Assembly (NCBI GenBank): GCA_941918925.1
Contig: OW799234.1
Location: 65,687,543-65,751,542, forward strand
Length of the DNA: 64,000 bases
Source: Phyto melanocephala
Taxonomy: Eukaryota; Arthropoda; Insecta; Diptera; Rhinophoridae
Direction of reading: 5' to 3'
Shown here in pieces: positions 20,744-63,418 of the stretch (position 1 is the stretch's first letter; each line of letters starts with the position of its first letter). The translations under genes and the position numbers were made by a program. Under the pieces are notes generated by a model that was given only the letters and a program-made list of their open reading frames with translations, made no database searches and had not been told where the DNA came from.

Positions 20744-20888
20744 ATAAAAGTGTAAATTGTGTCTATACATCTAAACTTATAAATGTTTTTATTTTTTATT
20801 CATTGCAAGCAAACAAAAATATTAAAAAATTTTAAACATTAAAAGTGTTAAACATTTTATAAAATTTTTGAAAAAAATAATAAAAAAA

Positions 20889-21742
20889 CAAGTAAGAGCG
20901 CTATATTCGGCCGTGCCGAATCTTATATACCCTTCACAACGTGTAGTCATGCAATAACAGTAGTTTGTATCACCATTCATCTCATATGAAATACGTACAC
21001 ACATATAAAAAACACATATATAAAAAACATCCCATTGTAAAATTATAAATTTACGTATGTATGTTACAAAAAAAAATAAAAAAAAAAAATTTAAAAAAAA
21101 AATTAAAAAAAAAAAAATTTTTTAAAAATAATTAAAATATATATAATTAATGTAAAACAAACAAAAAAATAAAAAAAAAAATTAAAAAAAAAATTAAAAA
21201 AAAAATAATAAAAATATAAATAATATATTAAATAAAAAATAAAAAAAAAATAAAAAAAAATTAAAAAAAAAAAATTTTAAAAAAAATTTTTAATATATAA
21301 AAACAATTTTTTTTGGCTCAGCTGGGATTCGATGCCACGTTTTCTCTAACCAGTATACACGTTTGTATGTATGTATGTTGTTGTTGTAATGTTGTTTTTG
21401 TGAAAAAAAAATCGAGGTGGTCGTGGGTTTTTGCTCATATCTCAGTTGTTTATGTACCGATGTTTCTGATTTTCAATAGCGATCTACTCCCGAATATTTC
21501 TGATATTTTAATACCTCACCCGGTTCCAAGCGATGTCGGGGGGCTTCAAAAAGTTGATTTCAACATACACACGGACAGACGGTCAGACGGACAGACGGAC
21601 AGACTGACAGAGCTTAATCGACTTCCCTATTCATAAGCTTTCAGAAAATGTATACTTTATGGGGTCGGAAATGAAAATTGTAGAAATTTCACACGGAATG
21701 ACAAACCTATATATACCCTTTTTCACTGTGTGAAGGGTATAA
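20889..21742 (+). mobile_element. (GTCY)n-type interspersed element (mini-me/DINE-1-like), full copy
   Basis: The landmarks in order are CAAGTAAGAGCGCTATATTC, the palindrome TTCGGCCGTGCCGAA, TATACCCTTCACAACG, and about 250 bp of A/T-only low complexity. Then come GGCTCAGCTGGGATTCGA, GTATGTATGTTGTTG, a GACAGACG microsatellite (GTCY on the other strand), and a terminal hairpin ending TGTGAAGGGTATAA. A T/A-rich core, a (GTCY)n tract and a 3-prime hairpin are what is described for dipteran mini-me/DINE-1 (Helitron-related) elements. The assignment is inference. No protein is encoded. Confidence 0.8.
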
Positions 21743-21776
21743 TAACTGCACCATCATTACGTATGTACTCAAGAGC

Positions 21777-32351: not shown

Positions 32352-32445
32352 GTAGTTCTTATTGCAGCTGCTGGCCACTGCACAAGATTAGATTAAATGA
32401 CTCTTGTGCGTGTGACAGCGGCTATTGTGAGATACTAATATCAAC
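32352..32445 (+). repeat. Short duplicated segment, copy 1
   Basis: TTCTTATTGCAGCTGCTGGCC and GACTCTTGTGCGTGTGACA recur at 44606-44690 over about 85 bp. In both places a TCGACC-ended MITE lies nearby, but the order differs. Confidence 0.6.
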
Positions 32446-32692
32446 AGCGTGTGGGGCTCTTCACTAAAATTTTAAAGGATTCCTGCTAACTTATGAAATT
32501 CTATTTTTTATGAATACACGTACTAACATATGTATGTATATGTAAGTCAAGATATACTAGTAAATGGCTTTGTTCGTTTATTAAAAAATTTTGCTGGACT
32601 TTACTGGATTGTTAACGTTTTATAAAGAATTTTGTGTAAACAAACGAAATTAAATAATGTTCAGTATATTTATAAATATACGAAAAAACATA

Positions 32693-35054: not shown

Positions 35055-35506
35055 TTTTTTTTTTTTATTCTTTTTTTTTCAACCAATATTTGTGACTTAA
35101 GCTTGATTGTAAGTATGATACAAATTACTATGTTTAAGCTTCTATTGTTGTAAAGCCTATGTTTTGTTATAGAATTATAAACAAATATACCCCAGAAAAA
35201 TGCTAGAGCAGAACAAAACTAGGATAGATAAAACTAAAATAAATAAAGAAAAAGCATTGTTGTGGTAGGAAAATATCAAAAAAGTAATTTGTTTTTGTTA
35301 CAATAAAAAAAAATTATGTGGAATTTTTACATAAAGCTATTATTAGGCTTCTAAAATAAAAAGAACATTTATTACCGAACACTCAGGTATTGTCGGCTTA
35401 ACAAAAATATTTATCCTAAAATATATTTATGATAAAAAAAATGGCCAGTATCCATAGAAAAATACCAAAAAAAATTATTAAAATAAAACAAAAACAGAAC
35501 TTAAAA

Positions 35507-36274
35507 CAAGTAAGAGCGCTATATTCGGCCGTGCCGAATCTTATATACCCTTCACAACGTGTAGTCATGAAATAACAGTAGTTTGTGTCACCATTCATCC
35601 CATATGAAATACGTACATAAAAAAAAAATTTAAAAAAAATTTAAAAAAAATAAAAAAAAAAAATTTAAAAAAAAATTAAAAAAAAAATTATTATATATAA
35701 TTATAATTATTATATATAAAACAAAAAAATAAAAAAAAATTAAGAAAAAAATGAAAAAAAAAAATAATAATAATAATATAAATAATATATTAAATAAAAA
35801 AAAAAAATTTTAAAAAAATTTAAAAAAAATTTTTACAAAAAATTAAAAAATTTTTTTTTTTTGGCTCAGCTGGGATTCGAAGCCACGTTTTCTCTAACCA
35901 GTATCCACATTTGTATGTATGTATGTTGTTGTTGTTTTTGTTAAAAAGAAATCGAGGTGGTCGTGGGTTTTTGCTCATATCTCAGTTGTTTATGTACCAA
36001 TGTTTCTGATTTTCAATACCGATCTACTCCCGAATATTTCTGATATTTGAATACCTTACCCGGGTCCAACCTATGTCGGGGGGCTTCAAAAAGTTGATTT
36101 CAACATACACTCGGACAGACGGTCAGACTGACAGACTGACAGGGCTTAATCGACTCCCCTATTCATAAGCTTTCAGAAAATATATACTTTATGGGGTCGG
36201 AAATCAAAATTGTAGAAATTTCACAAGGAATGACAAACCTATATATACCCTTTTTCACTGTGTGAAGGGTATAA
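35507..36274 (+). mobile_element. (GTCY)n-type interspersed element, full copy
   Basis: It has all landmarks of the copy at 20889: palindrome TTCGGCCGTGCCGAA, A/T-only core, GGCTCAGCTGGGATTCGA, a short GACAGACTGACAG tract and a terminal TGTGAAGGGTATAA. Confidence 0.85.
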
Positions 36275-36849
36275 AAATAAAATAATAATTATATAGTTTT
36301 TGGACCTGTTTTTAATTTAAATATTAATAAAAATTATTTCATCTAAAGGTCTTTTAATAATAAAAATATTGTCTTTCATTTTTATTAATTATCGGAGTAG
36401 CGAAGTATTGAGATAAATAATAAAAATTAAAAAATTTAAAAAGCACAAAAATTAAAAAAAAAAAATCTTAATTTTATTGTAAACAAAAAAAAAACACGTA
36501 GAATTCTTAACATTATTTCACTGCTAGCCGGATATTAATTAAGTACAATTATTAAACACACCCTTAATATTTACAAACGTAGCAAGAGGTATTAAAAAAT
36601 GTTGGTGTAAAATATAAATAATTCTAGTTTTGTTTGTTTTTTTTTTTTCGAATAAATAAAAATGCAAATGTTTGGCGTTTTGAAAAGAAAATACAAATAA
36701 AAAATGAAGACATACATATCACTCTACTACACTGTTTATAAGCCGATTTCAAAACGAAACAAACAAATGGGCAGACAGAAGAGAAGCAAAAACGTGAACT
36801 AAAAATATGTACTTAAAATTATGTTGTTTTAAATTACAACTTACATTTT

Positions 36850-38347: not shown

Positions 38348-38943
38348 TACATATTTTCTTATAAATTGTTTTAACAAATTGAAATTTTTTAGTTCAGTGA
38401 AATGTATTATTTGCTGAATACTAAATTCAAAGAGTGCTAAAAATGCCGAGTATAGTGCTGGTGTCGTTAAAATAAATAATAATAAAATTAAATTAATAAT
38501 AATAAATAATAACAAACAATTTATAAAAAAAAAATTAAAGCTAGTATTAAAACCTAATAAATATTGTAATATATATTATTGTTTTGTAAAAAAAAAAAAT
38601 CATTTTTGCGATAAATTGAATTTTTGAAATAACTGAATTTTTATTGTTTTTATTTTAGTTTTTAGATTTAAAAAAAAAATTGTGAATTTTTATTTTTAGA
38701 AAATTCTTTAATTTGTATGACAATTAAATGGAAATTGTATTTTTTGTTTATATTTTTTAGTTAAATTTTTTAAAATTATTTTTAAAAATTTTTTTTAAAA
38801 CATTTCAATTTGTTTATGTATTTTTTGTGTTCATTTAATTTCCAATAAAATTAAGGATTATTTTAAAAACAAACTTAATTAATAAAAAATATTTAAACAT
38901 TTTTGTTCCGAAATATCAAAATCTACAGCAAACTTACAAATAA
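38348..38943. other. Intergenic DNA, no gene seen
   Basis: Very AT-rich sequence with no supported feature. Confidence 0.4.
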
Positions 38944-39717
38944 CAAGTAAAAGCGCTATATTCGGCCGTGCCGAATCTTATATACCCTTCACAACGTGTA
39001 GTCATGCAATAACAGTAAATTCACGTATGTATGTTAAAAAAAACAAAAAAAAAATAAAAAATAAAAAAAAAATTTTAAAAAAAAAATTTAAAAAAAAAAA
39101 TTAAAAAAAAAAATTATTATATACATATATAATATATATAAAACAAAAAAAAAATAAAAAAAAAATTAAAAAAAAAAAAAATAAAAAAAAATAATAATAA
39201 AAATATATATAATATATTAAATAAAAAATAAAAAAAAAAATAAAAAAAAAATTTTAAAAAAATTTAAAAAAAAATTTTTTTGCCTCAGCTGGGATTCGAT
39301 GCCACGTTTTCTCTAACCAGTATACACGTTTGTATGTATGTATGTTGTTGTTGTAATGTTGTTTTTATGAAAAGAAAATCGAGGTGGTCGTGGGTTTTTG
39401 CTCATATCTCAGTTGTTTATGTACCGATGTTTCTGATTTTCAATACCGATCTACTCCCGAATATTTCTGATATTTTAATACCTTACCCGGGTCCAACCTA
39501 TGTCGGGGGGCTTCAAAAAGTTGATTTCAACATACACACGGACAGACGGTCAGACGGACAGACAGACAGACGGACAGACGGTCAGGGCTTAATCGACTCC
39601 TCTATTCATAAGCTTTCAGAAAATATATACTTTATGGGGTCGGAAATGAAAATTGTAGAAATTTCACACGGAATGACAAACCTATATATACCCTTTTTCA
39701 CTGTGTGAAGGGTATAA
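38944..39717 (+). mobile_element. (GTCY)n-type interspersed element, full copy
   Basis: Same landmarks as 20889-21742. The GACAGACG tract is longest here (about 39539-39587). Confidence 0.85.
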
Positions 39718-40370
39718 AAAGCTCCACTTTTGTAAGTATACAAATGTTTAAAGCATAAATATTTTACCATTTATTTTGTTTTCTAAATTCAAAACGCATA
39801 CATATGTATGTCGAAATTTTAATACAACTAAATAAGCATTTAGTGTGTTCACAAGGTGTGCTATCAGGTCATATTGTCAGAATTTCCTATTATTTAAAAC
39901 TGACTTAAAATAATTTAATACAAGCTATGCCTATTGCGACCGTTGGTACAACATAAGGAGGTTGGCCACGAGATGGATTTATTTTATGACGTTGTCTCTT
40001 TAGTGTACAAAAAATTAAAAAGTCTTGATTTCCAGGCATGTTGTATAACTTGGTTGAAATATGAGAAGGTATGTTGACAAGCAAATTTTGATTTTATGCT
40101 TCATTTATTTATTTTAAAAGTTTGTAAGAAGTTTGGAAAGAGAGAATGTACTCGCCTCTCTCACCTACCAACCAGCGTTACCGTTAGGGCCACTAAAGTA
40201 GCATTTTGCCACTTTTTCAAATGCTTGGATACTATTGTGCCACTTTGTCAAAATGCCCCCAAATGTGATACTTTTTATAAATCGTGCCACTTTTTAGATA
40301 CTTTTTACGAAATGGAAATATACTTTCGTTTTGTTAAAACACCTAATTTTAATACATCATGCGTGTTTAG

Positions 40371-44306: not shown

Positions 44307-44605
44307 TATGTATGTATATTTGACGCCTTATCGTGTACAACACAATACGTCCATATGTACATATATTTGTATGTACATACATATCTAAAAAAGCCATACT
44401 TTTACACGTTTTTAATTGCCTTTTAACAAAGCAACATAAAACCGTAAAAGTGTACATGATAATTAAATCGTTGATTTAAGGTTTTATTTTTATTTCAGTA
44501 CTTACCTTTAACTACGAGTACATATTAGTTTTTCAACTTGATTTTTAAAGAATTCTGAATTCAACACTCATAGCTGAGTAAAAGTTTTGTGTTTACAAAA
44601 AATGG

Positions 44606-44690
44606 TACTTATTGCAGCTGCTGACCACTGCACATGATTAGATTTAATGACTCTTGTGCGTGTGACAATGGCTATTGTAAGTTGCTAAAA
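44606..44690 (+). repeat. Short duplicated segment, copy 2
   Basis: Matches 32352-32445 with a few substitutions (CTTATTGCAGCTGCTGACC, GACTCTTGTGCGTGTGACA). Confidence 0.6.
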
Positions 44691-44763
44691 TCATCAAAAC
44701 AATTTTTGTAATAACATTTACCGAAGTGAGAAGTTTTTAAAAAAATGTGAATTAAAATAAAAA

Positions 44764-45733: not shown

Positions 45734-46454
45734 CAAGGCATATTCATACAGGTATATGCAACGGCGAATTAATACAACAAAACAACTTTTGAGGGGATGT
45801 TTGATGTTAAGGCCAATTCATATATCAGGGATGAAAAAGTTGTTATGACATATTATATATAATAAAATTTTATTAAAAAGGGATATAAATTTTTCAAACA
45901 CATTATTAATGACGCAAAAGCAACAAATATACATAAATTTAGTACATTTATTATCAAAAACGTACACTCAAGTTAATTGTTTAATACCGAAACCAAAATC
46001 ACATTTCCTATCCCTGCATTAATAAATAAAATCAAGGCAAATTCAACGAATTTCGACAAAAAGTATCCCCATCAGCTGGGCTGATAATTTCACCTGTATG
46101 AATTCGCCTTGAGCTAAGGCATATTCATGCAAGTACCTCGTCATAACAGCTGATCGGGAAGCATAACGTCAAAATTTGTTGAATTCGTCTTAATTTTATT
46201 GATTTGTGCGGGGATGGAAATGAGATTATTGTTTAACAATTAACTTAAGGGTCCTTTTTTCTAATTTTAATTATATTTGTTGTTTTTACATCCTTCATAA
46301 TGGGCTTCACAAATAAATATTCTCTTTTTTATCATAATAACTTTTTTTAATCATAATAACTTTTTTATCCCTGATATACAAATTCGCCTTAACAGAAAAC
46401 GTCTTCTAAAAAGTTGTTTTAATGTATCAATTCGCCGTTGCATATGCCTTGGTA
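45734..46454. mobile_element. Composite of CAAGGC-family hAT MITEs
   Basis: The left end is CAAGGCATATTCATACAGG and the right end GTTGCATATGCCTTG. An inner copy ends at GAATTCGCCTTG (46111), flanked by AGCTATAG and AGCTAAGG. The whole is bracketed by imperfect direct repeats GTAAGAGCTATAG (45721) and GTAAGAGATAG (46455). Two or three insertion or recombination events are needed to explain it. Confidence 0.7.
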
Positions 46455-46674: not shown

Positions 46675-48198
46675 CAAGTAAGAGCGCTATATTCGGCCGT
46701 GCCGAATCTTATATACCCTTCACAACGTGTAGTCATGCAATAACAGTAGTTTGTATCACCATTCCATATGATATACGTACATACATATAAAAAACATACA
46801 TATATAAAAACATCCCATTGTAAAATTAAAAATTGAGTTTACGTATGTTTCGAAAAAAAATAAAAAAAAATTTAAAAAAAAATTTAAAAAAAAAATTAAA
46901 AAAAAAATTTTTTTAAATAATTAAAATATATATAATAAATATAAAACAAAAAAAAAATATTAAAAAAAAAATAATAATAATAAAAATATAAATAATATAT
47001 TAAATAAAAAATAAAAAAAAAATAAAAAAAAAATTTAAAAAAAAATATAGAAAAAACAAGTAACAGTGCTATATTCGGCCGTGCCGAATCCTATATACCC
47101 TTCACAACGTGTAGTCATGCAATAACAATTGTTTGTATCACCATTCATCTCATATAAAATACGTACATATGTATATACTGGTTAGACTAAATGTGTCATC
47201 GAATCCCAGCTGAGCCAAAAAAATTTTATCTTATTTTATTTAAGATATTATTTATATTTTATTATTTTTTTTTATATTTTTTTTTAAATTTTTTTAAAAA
47301 ATTTTTTAAAATTTTTTTTTTTAAATTTTTTTTTTGTAATTTTTTTTATTATTTTTTTTTTATTTTTAATATATTTTTTTTTTGTAATTTTTTTTTTGGC
47401 ATGTTTTTTGCATGTATGTATATAAGTATGTTGTTGTTGTAATTGTGTAAAAAAACGAGGTGGTCGTGGTTTTTTGCTCATATCTCAGAAAGTTATGGGG
47501 CGATTGTGCTGAATTTCAATTCCTGGATATTTCCAAGAGATTGATACCATATACAGATCTGAGGAACATATAGTTGCTTCTAAAAGTTGATTTCAACCAA
47601 CACACAGACAGACGGGCAGACGGACAGACGGTCAGGGCTTAATCGACTCCTCTATTCATAAGCTTTCAGAAAATATATACTTTATGGGGTCGGAAATGAA
47701 AATTGTAGAAATTACAAACGGAATGACAAAGCTATATATACCCTTGTGCACCACAGGTGAAGGGTATAATAAAAAAAAATTTTTTGGGCTCAGCTGGGAT
47801 TCGATGCCACGTTTTCTCTAACCAGTATACACGTTTGTATGTAGTATGTTATTGTTGTAATGTTGTTTTTGTGAAAAAAAATCGAGGTGGTCGTGGGTTT
47901 TTGCTCATATCTCAGTTGTTTATGTACCGATGTTTCTGATTTTCAATACCGATCTACTCCCGAATATTTCTGATATTTTAATACCTCACCCGGGTCCAAG
48001 CGATTTCGGGGGGCTTCAAAAAGTTGATTTCAACATACACACGCACAGACGGACAGACTGACAGGGCTTAATCGACTCCCCTATTCATAAGCTTTCAGAA
48101 AATATATACTTTATGGGGTCGGAAATGAAAATTGTAGAAATTTCACACGGAATGACAAACCTATATACACCCTTTTTCACTGTGTGAAGGGTATAAAA
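46675..48198 (+). mobile_element. (GTCY)n-type element split by another copy
   Basis: The first subfamily begins at 46675 with palindrome and A/T core to about 47053. It resumes at about 47769 with GGCTCAGCTGGGATTCGATG, GCACAGACGGACAGACTGAC and the hairpin end at 48198. The insert is 47057-47768. Confidence 0.8.
47057..47768 (+). mobile_element. (GTCY)n-type element, second subfamily, nested and rearranged
   Basis: It starts CAAGTAACAGTGCTATATTC and ends with the hairpin CCACAGGTGAAGGGTATAA. The tRNA-box-like segment (CGAATCCCAGCTGAGCC, 47198-47216) is inverted compared with other copies, followed by a T-rich version of the core, so the middle has flipped. Confidence 0.75.
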
Positions 48199-48339
48199 AT
48201 CAATCCTTTTCGTTATATCGTTATTTGTTTATTTGTTACTTTATTATTTACACTTAATTCAATTTTCTTAAATTTTAACTTGTGATATCAATCACGCATG
48301 CACCACTTTGTTGCTGATGTCACATGATAAAGCTGCTTT

Positions 48340-49089
48340 TTATACCCTTCACCTGTGGTGCACAAGGGTATATATAGCTTTGTCATTCCGTTTGTAATTT
48401 CTACAATTTTCATTTCCGACCCCATAAAGTATATATTTTCTGAAAGCTTATGAATAGAGGAGTCGATTAAGCCCTGACCGTCTGTCCGTCTATCCGTCTG
48501 TCCGTGTGTTGGTTGAAATCAACTTTTAGAAGCAACTATATGTTCCTCAGATCTGTATATGGTATCAATCTCTTGGAAATATCCAGGAATGAATCGCTAT
48601 TGAAATTCAGCACAATCGCCCCATAACTTTCTGAGATATGAGCAAAAAACCACGACCACCTCGTTTTTTTTCACAATTACAACAACAACATACATACATA
48701 CATACATACATACATACATACATACATACATACATACATACATACATACATACATGTAAAAAACATACCAAACAAAAAAAATTACAAAAAAAAAAATATT
48801 AAAAATAAGAAAAAAATAATAAAAAAAACTACAAAAAAAAATTTTTAAAAAAATTTAAAAAAAATTTAAATAAAATATAAAAAAATAATAAAATATAAAT
48901 AATATATTAAATAAAATAAAATAAAATTTTTTTGACTCAGCTGGGATTCGATGCCACATTTATTCTAACGTGTACGTATGCACGTATTTTATATGGGATG
49001 AATGGTGATACAAACAATTGTTATTGCATGACTACACGTTGTGAAGGGTATATAAGATTCGGCACGGCCGAATATAGCACTGTTACTTG
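48340..49089 (-). mobile_element. (GTCY)n-type element, second subfamily, full copy
   Basis: Read on the minus strand it has all landmarks from CAAGTAACAGTGCTATATTC to CAGGTGAAGGGTATAA. The terminal hairpin is well formed (ACCCTTGTGCACCACAGGTGAAGGGT, split here by its loop). Confidence 0.85.
48688..48754 (+). repeat. (CATA)n microsatellite
   Basis: About 16 units in the element at 48340-49089; the other copies carry the same motif as short (GTAT)n. Confidence 0.95.
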
Positions 49090-49830: not shown

Positions 49831-50167
49831 TTGTTTATTTAAATCATAAAGTGCAACAAAATAGGTGATCTTAAAAAAAATTAATTTATTAGTGTGTTAA
49901 AAAAGTTTAAAAGTAATACAGAAAGTGATTGTTTTGTGCTTAATAAAAAATATATATGTACATATAAAAAAATGTCACGTCAGGCTTTTCGGAAAAATGT
50001 TAAAAAAGAGGCGTATTTGGATTTTCAAGTTAGCTTAAAATATTTAAAAGAATTGTTTTAACTATTAAATCTAGCATATAAACAATGTATATGAATATAT
50101 GTAATTAGGTAATAAATTAAATGAATAAAAAAATGTTACGTAAAACTGAGTTTTATTTTATTAAATA

Positions 50168-50480
50168 ATTATTTAAATTTGTTAATCAGGCTTGAGTTCA
50201 TATTAATATTCTTTATTTTTACAAAGAATTTGTTTTAATTGTGATAAATGAAAGAATAAATCTTGAAAAATTATATTTTTACCGACACTAGCCGAGTGGA
50301 ATGCATTTTCGAAACCAGCTACGATTTCATCATCAGCACTCTCTGATCGGTGGTTACATGTTGGTTGTAAATATCATCTATTTAACTCACGGGACTTATG
50401 TTAATTGAATTCGGTAACTAATTTTTAGTTTTTCCTATTTCATATATTTTTACCACAATGAGTTAGATTGAAATTTTAAC
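50168..50480 (-). repeat. Left arm of hammerhead-bearing inverted repeat
   Basis: About 300 bp, nearly identical in reverse to 51684-52004. The outer edge is TTAATCAGGCTTGAG, the inner edge GAAATTTTAAC. It contains a hammerhead-like motif at 50281-50351 on the minus strand. Confidence 0.88.
50281..50351 (-). ncRNA. Hammerhead ribozyme-like motif, copy 1
   Basis: The sequence is identical to 51813-51883 but on the opposite strand. All hammerhead core bases (CTGATGA, GAAA, UH before the cleavage position) and the three helices are present, as described for copy 2. If transcribed leftward from inside the arm, it would cleave the transcript between 50299 and 50298. Confidence 0.7.
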
Positions 50481-50595
50481 CAAACAGCAACCCTTTTTAC
50501 TTTTTGTTTGTTATTATCTTTCATTTATCACTATTTTTGTCCTGCTCTAGCCACCAGTTAGGTAGCGATAAGAACAGATAATTGTTTTTAACAAT

Positions 50596-51490
50596 CAGCG
50601 TTGTCAACTTTAAAATTTCAAAAAGCACCTAAACCCCTAAAAAAGCGCGTAATTTTCATAAAAAATCACTGAGTTTAATATGTGTACAAATTTAACTTTA
50701 CATTTGCTAATATAATCATTACTTAAAAAAAAATTAAAGCTTTTAGATGCCAGTTGCCCCCTAAAATAAATTATTTTACAAATGGCAATAAGACTGGAGT
50801 TTTGATTGATATCGATAATCGAAATACAAGTCTAAAGATATTCTGTTCTTTATATTATTAGGCCAAAACATCCAAATGTACTATTAATGCAAATATTAAC
50901 CTTATCAGGGTGTCAATTTGTGCTCTAAAAAATTTTAAAATAAAAAGTATTTGCATATTAATTTCTCTTTTTTTATTTTCACCAAGGTTTGATCAACTTG
51001 AAACTTTACTTACAAAATAAATTCTCGTAACAATTTCATTTTATAAGAAGTAGGTGGTTTATGTCTCATAAACCATACAGGATATCAACAAACCAGTATC
51101 GGAAATAAGTTACAATTAATAATAAACAAGCAAAACACTCAAATAACAGAAACATTGTATACTATCAATCCTTATAATCTACTTAATTATTAGTTTTAGT
51201 ATCATAAGCTGAAAGTATTATCAACATAATATCATTTTACAATGAGTAAATATTTTTTAGCTTTGTTAAGATACAAAATACGTAAGGGTAATTAAAGATA
51301 TTTACCCTTACAAAAATTGTTTTCAATTAAAAAAATTATTTTCGAATTTAGTATTTGGTGTCACCGAAATAAAAATAAAAGCACTAAAAACTTAAAAAAA
51401 AATCACCAAGCACTAACTCGCAATTTTTTCGCTTCCAAAATGTTAAAAATCACCAAAAACGGTGATAAAATCACCGAGTTGACAACGCTG
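50596..51490. mobile_element. hAT-type MITE, CAGCGTTGTCAACT ends, 895 bp
   Basis: A perfect 14-bp inverted repeat (right copy 51477-51490) with an exact 8-bp duplication TTAACAAT at 50588-50595 and 51491-51498. It sits between the two hammerhead arms, so it came after them. No transposase is encoded. Confidence 0.95.
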
Positions 51491-51683
51491 TTAACAATCA
51501 ATGTTTATAATCATTTGTTTTATTTTCTGTGAAGTCAGTATACAACGAAATGTTGACTGACAAACAGTGGATGAATGATTTTTTTTTTTTTTTTTTGCAC
51601 CGTGCCCTGTGTTTATATAAATTGAATTTTTATTTTGTCGAACTTTTCTGTTTAAACTATTATTTAAATTTTTAATCAGGCTT

Positions 51684-52004
51684 GTTAAAATTTCAATCTA
51701 ACTCATTGTGGTAAAAATATATGAAATAGGAAAAACTAAAAATTAGTTACCGAATTCAATTAACATAAGTCCCGTGAGTTAAATAGATGATATTTACAAC
51801 CAACATGTAACCACCGATCAGAGAGTGCTGATGATGAAATCGTAGCTGGTTTCGAAAATGCATTCCACTCGGCTAGTGTCGGTAAAAATATAATTTTTCA
51901 AGATTTATTCTTTCATTTATCACAATTAAAAAAATTCTTTGTAAAAATAAAGAATATTAATATGAACTCAAGCCTGATTAAAAAAAAAATAAAATTTAAA
52001 TAAT
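51684..52004 (+). repeat. Right arm of hammerhead-bearing inverted repeat
   Basis: Reverse complement of the left arm. Its inner edge is preceded by another AATCAGGCTTG (51674-51684) within a TATTATTTAAATTT context that also occurs, inverted, at its outer edge. The right arm itself is therefore bounded by short inverted repeats. Confidence 0.88.
51813..51883 (+). ncRNA. Hammerhead ribozyme-like motif, copy 2
   Basis: Seen in sequence: stem I outer ACCGAT (51813-51818) with GTCGGT (51878-51883), and stem I inner GAGTG (51823-51827) with CACTC (51866-51870). The core CTGATGA is at 51828-51834. Stem II is GAAATC (51836-51841) with GGTTTC (51848-51853) and loop GTAGCT. GAA follows at 51854-51856. 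The palindrome AATGCATT (51857-51864) acts as a tiny stem III, and C51865 is the expected cleavage nucleotide. Known: minimal type I hammerheads with short palindromic stem III, often acting as dimers, occur in Penelope-like elements and retrozymes. One unpaired T (51835) between the core and stem II is a deviation that could reduce activity. Confidence 0.72.
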
Positions 52005-52389
52005 AGTTTATTTTAGATTTCTTTAAGATATCTGTACGATTAATCGGTTCGAATTACATCCGACAAACTTTCAGAAATCTGTCAGAAATCCATACGAATG
52101 TCGTATAATAAATCAGAATTTCCCCTGCTTTTTCTATCAGATTTCTGTCAGATTTCTATCAGACACGTAACACGACACATGTCTGTCAGAATTCATGTTA
52201 ACCACTTCATATGTTTGTCGGTCAGAAGTCTGACAGAATTCGTATAGAATTCTTACCTGTTTGTCGACATTTCTTACAGACATCTGATAGATGTCGAACA
52301 ATTTTTCAGGCTAGGAAATTACAACTTACATACTTATGTATGTATATGCGCAATGCATAATCTTGTTTTTATAATTTTTGATTGTTTAC

Positions 52390-59100: not shown

Positions 59101-62100
59101 AATAGCACCTTGAGATATGAAAGTATTTTTTAAAATGCCAAATAAATGGAATCTGAATTCAAAATAAAAACGATTAGAAGTACAAAATGCAATCCGATCA
59201 GAAGGATTTTAATTGAAGACAGGTTTTTTTTAACTCTCAAATTTAAATTGCAGAGGTACGTATCCAAAATACCAGGGTATCCCACGCTAGTTGAGGCTCC
59301 GTAAACTGATCTATACATTTATTTGTATAGAGTCAGAGATATCTGAACAATAAATAAAGATGAATGACTGCTCCATCTACCAATAAATGAGTTTAATTGA
59401 AGTCCTTCAGTTAATCAAATTAACAGCATACAATAAAATGTAGAATCATTACACAATACAGTTACGCGACGCCACACAAATAACCATGTCAAAAGTGAGA
59501 CACAGAAGTCAGATAAGAACGAACTGCTTGATTGCCCTTATACGATATTGTCAATCACAGCTCAATTACAATTCGAATAAAGACAGATATACAAATCAGC
59601 TAATACATTACAATACCATTTTGTTCATTCAATATATTCTTTTAATCCATTTCCTATACCCCTCCATGATATGTTGGTAAACCATAGTACAAATCTATAG
59701 ATTTGTTTAAAAAAATGAAGTGGATGCAATCAGAAAGCGTAACTTAAAACGAAATGGTGGTGAAATAAAACCAAAAAATTTACCAAAGTTGAAACTAAAT
59801 AGCTGCTTGACTATCTTCTTTTAAACTTAATTTTAATTATGTTTACAAATTTAAGATGCAAAAAAATCGATTTAAAATGATTTAAGGTTAAAAACCTACA
59901 ACCATTTATAACAACGTTGAGATTTGGAGAAAAAACTCCGGAGCTCGCTTTATTGCAATTTTTTTTATTTTTTGTTCGATTAAATTTTGTAGTGGATTTT
60001 ATCACAGCGAAAGAAGCAATAGGATTAAAAAGTTATGATTTTATCTTTTTCTATGTAAAGTGTTAAGTATTTTTTATTCTTTTTTTAAAAAAGATACTTA
60101 CCAATATTTCCAAATATGATACCATTTTCTGTAGATGATACCTTGACATTGGCCTTAATGTTACAGAAATCATGTGGAGCCAAAACTACTGGATGAGGTC
60201 GTTCTACCAATTTCAAATCACCCAAAGTTGCCAACTCTAAAGTACAATTTTGCAAAGTGTCATCTTAAAAAAAGATTCAAAGAATTATGTTTAAAATTAC
60301 AATTAAAACTTATGAATAAAAGCTATTCCAACTCACTCGTTTGATTTACAATCAATACATCCAAAACAATATCATATTGATTAACATTAACATAAGCCTC
60401 AGCATAAACAGGATCAGAGAAACCAGTCAATTGTGTAACTTTGTTTAACTTATTGTTCGGCGAAGTAATGTCGCTCATGTTAGTAGACTTGGTTCCAGCT
60501 AAAGCTTGGTTCAAACTAGATTCAAATAAATTTTCACCCAATTGATTTTCACGGCCATTCGAGAGTTGTGAAAAAAGAACTGGATCATCGGGTTGTACTT
60601 TAGCAGCAGCCTTTTGTTTTTCCTTAAGAACACGTTGATCCTCATCGTATTGTGCATCTAACATTTTGCCCAGAGCCTGACGGCAATAACGTTTAAATAC
60701 TTCAACAGCTTCTTCAGTGCGTTCGCTTAATGTGCGCAAGCAAATGAAAATGCGATCCGTATCGTCATTAGTAATGGGTTTCGTAGGAAAACCAGATTTA
60801 CCCAAATGAAGAATAGAACTCATGATAAGCATAACACGAGTTGTCAAACGATTCTGAGCAATCTTAAATGTAAAAATTGTATTAAAATTATATATAAAGT
60901 GTTTGCTTCATCAATTTATTAATATCTTTAATTAAAAGCTTAAAAATACTGTATATTAAATTGCAGCGATAAATATACTTACTGCTTCTTGTTCCAAATC
61001 AGCGTAACGCAATACCAACTTGGTCAATGTGGCCGATAAAGCAGCACCAATAAAGAAATCACCATCCATTAGATATTGTCGTAATGGTGGACGTTTTTCC
61101 TTTTTGGCGATTCTGAAATTTGAAACAAAAAATTTGGCTGAGAAAAAAATTTTATAAAAAGCAATTAACAAACTTACGGCGCCAAACTAAAAGCACTCTG
61201 TGTGGCGTAAGTACCATCAGAGGTAACTTTATTATTCGAAACTTGTACAGTGGTTGCTGAGTTATTTGCAGCATTAGTCTCTTCCTCTGTTTGATCGCCA
61301 GTTAAACGCCTTTGTTCCGCTTCAACCATGGGAATTTCACCTAAAGTTTGACATATAACATCAATAACTTCCAAAATTTGGTTTTTGTCATCAACATATT
61401 CTCCTAAAATCCATACAGCAGCACGATGTATTTTGGAGGACTTTATCTGAGGAAACGCCTCAATCAAATGACCAATAATTAAACCTCTTAAAGAGGGGAA
61501 CTTTTGTATAGCTTCCCGTATGAAAATTAAAACATCAGCAGCAGCTAATTCATTTGTGTCCGAAAGAAATTCTACTAATACTGGTATAACACTAGCAGCC
61601 ACATCTGGGAATTTTATAGAACAAGAATGGAGAGTGCGCACTAAAAGTTGGCGATATTTGCCAGTATCTTCATGTTCAACATTATGAGTTTTGGAAACTT
61701 CTTTCTTCAATACTAACACCATTTCATTAATGTTTCTAGAGGAAACTAAATCCATGGCCAAAGCCAATGTTTTGCGTCTTACTTCTATGTCGGGTGCAGC
61801 CAAAACACGCAGAATATCCATTACTAAATCTTGCATAACCTTTTCCATATTTTCATTTTCTTTCATAGCAATTAGGCGATCCAAGACGATCAGTTTAACA
61901 TTGTTGTCACTCTCCTTTACAATCAATTCAATGTAGCAGCCGGCAGCTGCCTTAATAGCTGTTGGCGCAGATGACAGAGTAATCAAAGTACCTGCTGCTT
62001 CATAACGTACTGCATTCGATGATGAATTCAAGAGATTGTAAATGCAGCGTATAAAGCGTGAACGTTCGGCGGGATTAGCATGACACACTTTATAAATCAA

Positions 62101-63061
62101 CTCAACTATGACCAATTGTAGGATATCACCAAAGCTATTCACTTGATCAATACAGGAAGCCAAATAATTAAGGGCTCTCTCCTGATCGGCATGTAATAGC
62201 ATAAGGAAAGCATTCCGCTTACAGGACATATCTTGTTGAGTATCCAAGAAGTTGGCTATTAACTCTGGACCATCAGGTACTAGCCACTCAAAGTTTTTGT
62301 ATATGGTGAAAATGGCAAGAACTGCATTGCGTCGAACATATGAATGACGATGTTCTAAACAAGCCCGAATCGAAGGCATAAGAGGCTCAAGTAGTTCTGG
62401 TTCCTTAAGTTTGCACAAGAAACGCAAAGTTGAACCACGAAGAAACTCGTTGGGATGCTGAAGATCCTGCAAGGGGAATTAATATTGCTTCAAAAAGTTT
62501 TGGGTTGTTATTGGTATATTACAGTTACAATAATTTCAAATTTTTTTTTTCTTTCAAACATTCCTTTAAAAATTTAGTTACAGAAACTGATGAACACCTT
62601 TAAATCAAAACTGGGTTTTGTGCTTCTACAAACGTGAGAACTACCACATACATACATATATGTATGTATGTAGGCATGTTTTTAATGTACTTTCTCAAAT
62701 ATATATAAGATAATCCTAAGTTTAAAAAAAATCTTACCTTTCTGTATGCATCACACACTAAAATCATTTCCTGTAATAATTTACCATCAGCCGAAGTCTT
62801 TGGTACAATTTCCCAAAAGATAAGCAAAAGCTTTTTAATAGTATGATTCTGTACGGGCAACACAAATCTAATGATTGTCATAATAAGTCCCGACAAACGT
62901 TCACCATTCAGTAATAATTGAATGACCTTTTTCAGGGTGTCTATTTTAACATTCGTGTCACCCTTTTCCAAATCTTGTTTCAGTTGCATTTCATTGGGCA
63001 CCTCTAAATCGGGAGAATTGATAATCGTGTAACAAGGCACAGTGCTACTAGATAAAGCCAT
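53119..63061 (-). CDS. betaCOP: Coatomer subunit beta (beta-COP), nine exons
   Basis: Beta-COP is a core subunit of the COPI coat that buds Golgi-to-ER and intra-Golgi vesicles. Coding exons on the minus strand: 63061-62738, 62466-61178, 61112-60983, 60862-60337, 60263-60102, 58568-58432, 58361-58225, 58126-58021, 53184-53119. All introns are GT-AG and phases agree; the total is 2,877 bp (958 residues plus stop), close to other animal beta-COPs. The start [15 protein letters not shown] has a good context (AAAAATGG). Residues about 20-540 are the adaptin-like helical repeat ([31 protein letters not shown]). [20 protein letters not shown] starts the middle segment. [20 protein letters not shown] marks the beta-COP C-domain, and [12 protein letters not shown] the appendage. 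The last exon encodes [21 protein letters not shown]. Confidence 0.97.
53440..54360 (+). pseudogene. Non-LTR retrotransposon RNase H and C-terminal end
   Basis: [20 protein letters not shown] (near 53727-53787) matches the last RNase H motif (WVPGHxGVxGNExADxLAR). After stops and frameshifts, KSKRMC, then [13 protein letters not shown] and [20 protein letters not shown] match the C-terminal zinc-finger tail (EHLLCHCPALA, LxxLxxISxxxxxxLLxFIxxxGW). It ends near 54150, and a 3-prime UTR (GGGATGCACAATGGACC to about 54360) follows. It is antisense to beta-COP within its last intron. The presence of RNase H suggests an I/LOA-type clade, different from the fragment at 52390. Confidence 0.82.
55574..55764. 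mobile_element. hAT-type MITE, CAAGGC family, 191 bp, perfect ends
   Basis: A perfect 25-bp inverted repeat begins CAAGGCGAATTCAATAAGG. The exact 8-bp duplication ATTGCTAG is at 55566-55573 and 55765-55772. This is the cleanest and probably youngest copy of the family in the window. Confidence 0.96.
56348..57089 (-). mobile_element. Helitron, non-autonomous, 742 bp, both ends intact
   Basis: On the minus strand it starts TCTATATATATAAAAGTG after A and ends GGGTTTGGCTAG before T. Five units with a period of 120-123 bp carry GGGCGTGGCACTGCCCAC-like boxes (near 56453, 56574, 56696, 56816, 56938). No protein remains. Confidence 0.92.
57290..57430 (+). repeat. LINE 3-prime UTR fragment
   Basis: GGGCACAAAATTGACC, TGGTCTCCGAGTGT, GGAAGTGTCTCTTGCTTCC and CACCTACTTG align with 54245-54340, the UTR behind the RNase H remnant. 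No coding part remains. Confidence 0.6.
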
Positions 63062-63418
63062 TTTTCCTTCTTTTTTATCGTACGCACACAAAATAAATTC
63101 CTTAATACAATAATATGTATAATCGACCTTTTTTCTAAATTAATTGATGTATGCTGAAATTAACTTTTATTATTTTCGGTATTTTCACGATTTTTTAGTT
63201 TTTAAGAAAATTGACGTGTCAGATTTTTTGGCCACACAGTTGTAAGAAAGAGCATTTTCTTATGTTTGACAAAGTACTAATAAAACAAAAATAAAAACTT
63301 TTTATATACAATCGTTTTAATTCGTAGTATTTATTGTAAAAATACTCTCTCTAATTAACAAATCAAAACAATACAATACCTTCACTAAAAATTAATAGTC
63401 ATAAAGAATTTGTTTGCT
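63062..63418. promoter_or_regulatory. Divergent intergenic spacer, probable shared promoter
   Basis: These 357 bp separate the ATG of beta-COP (leftward) from the ATG of the next gene (rightward). It is AT-rich with no TATA box at a sensible distance on either side, as is common for housekeeping promoters. Both 5-prime UTRs must lie here or begin here. Confidence 0.6.

Follow-up and report, generated by a model that had tools for sequence, protein, structure and literature searches.

Why does the window, by which we mean the whole 64,000-nucleotide stretch of Phyto melanocephala DNA that was analysed, carry two identical hammerhead-like motifs that face each other, and what placed them there? 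An earlier note on this DNA had reported two identical 71-nt motifs in inverted arms, and their identity is confirmed, as the copy at 51813-51883 (+) is the exact reverse complement of 50281-50351 (-). We propose, with a probability of roughly 0.7, that they belong to a metazoan-type non-LTR retrozyme family mobilised by a PLE-type enzyme, in which every unit of about 574 bp has one type I hammerhead. The window insertion is composed as follows.

50152-50160: target-site duplication (TSD), left copy, TTTATTTTA; same 9-mer at 52007-52015, boundary set by eye
50161-52006: entire candidate retrozyme insertion, head-to-head, including a later hAT-like insert; from homology to the 574-bp unit and the shared flank word
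50161-50595, minus strand: 3' part of a unit (from about unit position 142) with a short 3' end and no tail
50281-50351, minus strand: minus copy of the hammerhead-like motif, with its core at 50336-50330 and cleavage predicted after 50299
50588-50595 and 51491-51498: 8-bp TSD of the hAT-like insert, TTAACAAT; letters verified
50596-51490: hAT-like, non-autonomous insert within the minus unit; terminal inverted repeat of 14 bp, CAGCGTTGTCAACT, letters verified
51491-51684, minus strand: remainder of the minus-sense unit (unit 1-151) and 3' end of the preceding unit (543-574); from unit mapping
51684-52006, plus strand: plus-sense unit, 5'-truncated (from unit 258), with a short 3' end; from unit and end mapping
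51813-51883, plus strand: hammerhead-like motif, plus copy
51828-51834, plus strand: conserved core CUGAUGA, with an extra U at 51835
51865, plus strand: C17, with cleavage predicted after this base
52007-52015: target-site duplication, right copy, TTTATTTTA; letters verified

The hammerhead-like motifs of the window

The most plausible reading of the inverted layout is a single insertion in which both ends were primed; the head-to-head insertion was then struck by the hAT-like insert, whose label we assume from the rule of 8-bp TSDs. None of the stop-to-stop ORFs that overlap 50161-52006 reaches 80 codons. An insert with the same ends as 50596-51490 also interrupts the element at about unit 140-147 in loci L029 and L040, which are one place, and the nearly equal insert position suggests that the site may be a hot spot.

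Elsewhere, the window contains two mir-210 precursor matches above the Rfam cut-off (32352-32447 and 44602-44697, on the same strand and 12 kb apart) and pieces of a coatomer beta subunit gene at 60323-63091 (-), with up to 87% identity to full-length relatives and 77% in the louse Menopon. An ORF with a DDE_Tnp_1_7 transposase domain, which we take to be of piggyBac type, lies at 1614-2339. Two large imperfect palindromes (47825-48717 and 45750-46449), 74% and 72% identical to their own reverse complements, lie within a repeat cluster that is common to 20883-21745, 35503-36277 and 38938-39720.

A search of the window for the 38-nt core, with up to three mismatches allowed, gave two occurrences, both exact (51828-51865 on the plus strand and 50299-50336 on the minus strand), and 0 matches in 100 shuffles. 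Reading the letters confirmed the invariant bases, the 6-bp stem II, the palindromic stem III and the extra unpaired U that had been described: the motif reads CUGAUGA, GAA, A15.1-U16.1 and triplet UUC, both window copies agree with the invariant core (CUGANGA...GAA, A15.1-U16.1, H17), and stem III comes from the palindrome AATGCATT. Stem I, which is in two parts, is read here as 6+2+5 bp with internal loops between. For the plus motif this reading predicts cleavage after C51865, a letter that was verified. The extra U lies between A9 and stem II, once per motif, in both window copies and in all 48 full or nearly full copies of the family (48/48). By analogy it has a natural precedent as an inserted core nucleotide, a known exception, and in the chrysanthemum chlorotic mottle viroid the extra A is placed after A9. 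The plus hammerhead of a viroid is drawn with an extra A (PMC3705267), and some natural core insertions reduce hammerhead activity (PMC3088659).

How often would such a motif arise by chance? A pattern that combined the core with minimum stem lengths of 5 bp (stem I), 6 bp (stem II) and 2 bp (stem III), and that tolerated G-U pairs and one extra base, appeared in 15 of 10,000 simulated 64-kb windows of the same dinucleotide make-up and in none of an earlier set of 150, while the real window has it on both arms. A covariance-model match, proposed earlier as a check, was not obtained from Rfam, an outcome that counts against the motif: no hammerhead was found in the whole window at gathering thresholds, nothing matched a 1951-base piece at E<=10, and 101 bases gave only five snoRNA matches, each below its own cut-off. 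We suspect that the inserted base and the long stem I are responsible. The weak C/D-box snoRNA matches at 51825-51863, likewise below their cut-offs, are probably due to the UGAUGA of the motif, which we liken to a snoRNA C box. A 23-base motif pattern had 0 matches in the viral contigs scanned, and no hammerhead of another family was found in 232,753 analysed bases, in which overlapping loci are counted repeatedly.

A transcript of either window strand contains one sense and one antisense motif, and the minimum-free-energy fold of 50140-52030 has every motif base (71/71) paired to the other arm. Because the motifs pair together and there is no second same-sense copy for a double hammerhead, the window locus is probably inactive in cis according to these folds, and the idea that facing copies process transcripts of either strand is unsupported. 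Direct tandem arrays would be likelier source loci than the window. The palindromic stem III is predicted to favour the dimer, with a double hammerhead at -40.1 kcal/mol vs 2 x -11.7 for monomers. Competing predicted folds are lower, at -17.8 for the monomer (hammerhead -11.7) and -44.6 for the dimer (double hammerhead -40.1). Folded as a circle with the motif included, the unit gives z = -4.9 against 200 shuffles. In invertebrates, type I hammerheads mostly have a stable helix III and cut as monomers (PMC7761336), whereas stem III is weak in the present motif. Predicted Aedes and Nematostella hammerheads, possibly dimer-requiring, were inactive in the assay of PMC3088659.

The repeat family and its insertion ends

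The motif is part of a repeat family with at least 45 matches in its own genome, 40 of the 1404 first-look candidates being scored. The unit of about 574 bp is non-coding, has a GC content of 28%, contains one motif (unit 387-457, predicted cut after unit 439), and its longest stop-to-stop ORF has 96 codons. Copies occur as one to five direct tandem units or head-to-head, and some arrays run in both directions and meet head-to-head. Direct arrays have a period of about 574-594 bp; locus L021 holds three consecutive copies, the first 5'-truncated, with a 574-bp period and 100% identity. Up to five units run in one direction (L031); L034 and L035 have four. The family thus consists of dispersed non-coding tandem repeats with a putative type I hammerhead, which supports the earlier claim of a type I hammerhead-like motif in a repeated element, one that resembles retrozymes and has ends like those of PLEs. 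Since the listing favours the closest copies, the youth of the family is established for the listed copies only. Two pairs of loci, L002/L003 (about 10 kb apart) and L012/L013 (about 4 kb apart), show the same insertion structure twice, which suggests segmental duplication after insertion; as they repeat L002 and L012, L003 and L013 do not enter the counts of distinct insertions.

The first 30 loci contain 50 motif places. In 48 of them the motif is full or almost so, and 45 of these are identical; each of the other three carries one change, in CUGAUGA, in GAA and in stem II respectively, a number too small to reveal compensation. Compared with the reference unit, 7 of 4793 motif cells differ vs 30 of 15,000 in two neighbouring arm stretches, so the motif shows no excess conservation and its identity among copies carries no sign of selection; unit 1-257 is more variable (113/12,328 cells). 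Core bases and stems that are all kept in 45/48 copies, together with the rarity of the pattern by chance (15/10,000) and the extra A drawn in the viroid plus hammerhead (PMC3705267), speak against a catalytically dead motif in an element that a PLE-type enzyme would move without self-cleavage. The extra U, the missing Rfam score and the lack of excess conservation would suit such a motif, and so would the anole PLE hammerhead mutants, for which PMC11167929 reports unaffected insertion in vitro. We consider a dead motif possible but unlikely, and judging from its sequence the family is a non-coding jumping element, very probably with a self-cutting RNA.

The outer 3' ends of the insertions were mapped by ungapped anchored extension in 27 insertion records, 25 of them distinct. 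They fall into two classes, short ends at unit 568-574 or up to +4, and tailed ends at +27 to +41. In 16 of the 17 distinct head-to-head insertions one short end is combined with one tailed end, and none has two tailed ends; the exception, with two short ends, is the window. Random pairing would yield 16 mixed pairs with P = 0.0005. Among the eight direct-only insertions, five are tailed (L018 ends at +26) and three short. The 3' end of the element lies at both outer ends in all 17 head-to-head insertions, with two different start sites in 16 of them, while 5' ends and arm lengths differ between copies. According to BLAST ends, the arm junctions overlap by 1-9 nt in 11 of the 17, leave a gap in five and are ambiguous in L032.

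Flank words of at least 9 bp are shared in all 16 tested head-to-head insertions and in two of eight direct-only ones, that is, in 18 of 24 distinct insertions vs 17 of 552 swapped flank pairs in the control. A shared word may extend as far as 8 bases into the element in this test. L040 was left out, and for the window insertion, L011, L026 and L031 the boundaries had been drawn by eye ahead of the count. In the head-to-head assemblies these TSDs measure 9-15 bp, and wherever present they exceed 4 bp. Judged by the flank-word counts, head-to-head assemblies each arise in a single event, and a duplication is missing from most one-sided insertions.

The arms of the window insertion, 97.8% identical over 320 aligned positions (50161-50480 / 51684-51999), could be taken for the long terminal inverted repeats of a DNA transposon. 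The varying 5' ends and arm lengths, the direct-only arrays and the two classes of outer end make such a transposon very improbable. It was rejected by the comparison of copies, in which fixed inverted ends were not found; the same comparison led us to reject a satellite.

Template and mobilising enzyme

Within an insertion, plus and minus arms differ by a mean of 0.46%, vs 0.69% for shuffled arms, and 5 of 2000 shuffles were as low (15 usable insertions, with homopolymer stretches skipped in arm-divergence comparisons). When all units are pooled, 108 of 34,859 sites differ between units of one insertion, and 4623 of 676,037 between units of different insertions. Arms no closer than average are seen in the window (2/294) and in L024, L026 and L034 (about 0.9-1.3%), and gene conversion could contribute to the similarity within insertions. 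In L031, variants at unit 72, 109, 143 and 246 are present in all covering units, plus and minus; they mark subfamilies, because they are also present in two to five other insertions.

A cleaved linear monomer would, from the mapped start sites, yield a cDNA of at most about 135-175 nt. As 48 of the 50 places with any part of the motif continue through the cut site at unit 439-440, we infer for these copies a template that was either circular and closed or a tandem transcript left uncleaved, and not a cleaved linear monomer. A linear monomer would also fit some other arms, which end close to the cut or beyond it on the downstream side (unit 437 in L014, 449 in L024, 477 in L011, 516 and 520 in L040).

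We hypothesize the following cycle for the retrozyme. Direct tandem copies would be transcribed, and the hammerhead would cut at unit 439, probably as a double hammerhead through its palindromic stem III, releasing unit-length RNA that a host ligase could close, as published retrozymes suggest. An enzyme, presumably a PLE-type reverse transcriptase/endonuclease, would then cut both strands of an AT-rich site and prime on one RNA species from both target 3' ends, with a distance of about 35 nt between the start sites. Both cDNAs would then meet head-to-head, and repair would yield the target-site duplication. The motif, the unit, the tandem and head-to-head structure, the TSDs and the two classes of 3' end are observed directly, while cleavage, circle and the identity of the mobilising enzyme are the interpretive parts of this scheme.

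For PLEs, published work describes two reverse-transcription start sites separated by 30-40 nt, priming on both target strands and copies arranged head-to-head, and by this analogy the mobiliser looks like a PLE-type enzyme. More tentatively, a trans-acting PLE-type enzyme may work on a circular ribozyme RNA such that the dimer halves take different start sites of the same RNA species, one per target strand. If true, every concerted insertion should be head-to-head and bear a tail at exactly one of its ends, the machinery behind the movement of animal retrozymes would be named, and PLEs would gain an integration rule. A purified anole PLE protein used start sites alike on both strands (PMC11167929), which does not support one site per strand, though our proposal concerns pairs within one event. 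The pairing of one short with one tailed end (16/17) is a testable clue to integration on two strands simultaneously. What is new is that PLE-type ends coincide with a hammerhead-bearing, ORF-free family; among the open-licence papers listed in literature searches, no title or abstract opening reports such ends for retrozymes. As the ends carry a signature called unique to PLEs (PMC11167929), the identity of the mobiliser can be tested within a single genome that has many nearly identical copies.

Could a LINE-type enzyme mobilise the retrozyme instead, with inversions from twin priming? The 5' truncation, TSDs and short junction overlaps are equally compatible with this. ORFs of at least 150 codons occur in 6 of 40 loci, by coordinates in the flanks except for an overlap of about 30 bases in L034. 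Nine of the ten listed ORFs, all but the 199-codon ORF of L034, were scanned and gave RVT_2, which we take to be Copia-type, DUF4780, endonuclease, DUF5641, RVT_1 and SH3_retrovirus; one had a CALCOCO1 match below the cut-off and two had no match. LINE-type fragments, one endonuclease ORF and, putatively, one RVT_1 ORF, lie near two retrozyme copies. The RVT_1 ORF belongs to L039 and falls beyond the flank words that bound the retrozyme copy there, and none of its 120 listed relatives carries a GIY-YIG label. In L034:2-7000, the head-to-head insertion is flanked by the RVT_2 ORF on one side and by the DUF4780 and endonuclease ORFs on the other. Twin priming inverts a 5' part and does not place the 3' end of the element at both outer ends. 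The latter is what all 17 head-to-head insertions have, 16 of them with two start sites, and we regard a LINE-type mobiliser as improbable.

Alternatively, the element could be a non-autonomous PLE, its unit being the pseudo-LTR of a PLE minus the ORF and its hammerhead the PLE's own. PLE-type ends, head-to-head copies and tails agree with this, and type I hammerheads sit in the pLTRs of PLEs (PMC11167929 and PMC7761336). On the other hand, PLE hammerheads are described in PMC7761336 as minimal, without helix III or loop-loop contacts, whereas in the present motif stem I consists of two parts and stem II spans 6 bp, and the longest ORF of the unit has only 96 codons. A genome search with PF01541 (GIY-YIG), a model whose power for PLEs is uncontrolled, scored 126 candidates and gave one match and no PLE endonuclease; its letters, read by eye, and its MED31-like neighbour mark this match as SLX1-like. 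We therefore think a non-autonomous PLE unlikely and retain the retrozyme moved by a PLE-type enzyme.

Comparison with known systems

PLEs resemble the present family in their ends. A purified PLE protein cuts and extends both target strands and begins reverse transcription at two internal sites that lie close together; this accounts for the 30-40-bp tail, a feature that the authors call unique to PLEs (PMC11167929). PLEs have inverted pLTRs, 8-10-bp TSDs and a 31-bp tail on one inverted pLTR, and head-to-head is their commonest arrangement; the authors favour self-priming on an antisense template as an alternative to two-sided priming (PMC3846280). Shared with these elements are the head-to-head copies, the TSDs, the optional 30-40-nt tail and the AT-rich target, all as given in PMC3846280 and PMC11167929, and in the latter the hammerhead lies upstream of the start sites as it does here. 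The family differs in that it lacks a PLE-sized ORF, and with it a reverse transcriptase ORF with or without a GIY-YIG endonuclease, in that its hammerhead is not minimal, and in that no partner PLE was found with PF01541.

Among hammerhead repeats of insects, pDo500 of Dolichopoda cave crickets (PMC2837043), for which single and double hammerheads were proposed and whose name suggests 500 bp, is a satellite DNA, whereas the present family forms dispersed insertions with TSDs. The putative Aedes aegypti repeat hammerhead, likened here by its description, also has a palindromic stem III and loop and a proposed dimer, and one Aedes RNA was inactive in that assay (PMC3088659). The chrysanthemum chlorotic mottle viroid plus hammerhead likewise has one extra nucleotide in an otherwise standard core, an A there and a U here, in an animal element (PMC3705267).

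Metazoan non-LTR retrozymes share the type I hammerhead, the dispersed short tandem repeats, the absence of LTRs, the low GC content and TSDs of more than 4 bp with the present family (PMC7229834). Their repeats measure 150-450 bp, compared with about 574 bp here, which is outside that range, and their circles 170-400 nt; insects are among their hosts. On the enzyme that moves them the same source is undecided, but it names PLEs as strong candidates. To this group, as described there, the present family adds an extra core U, two-site ends and a head-to-head layout.
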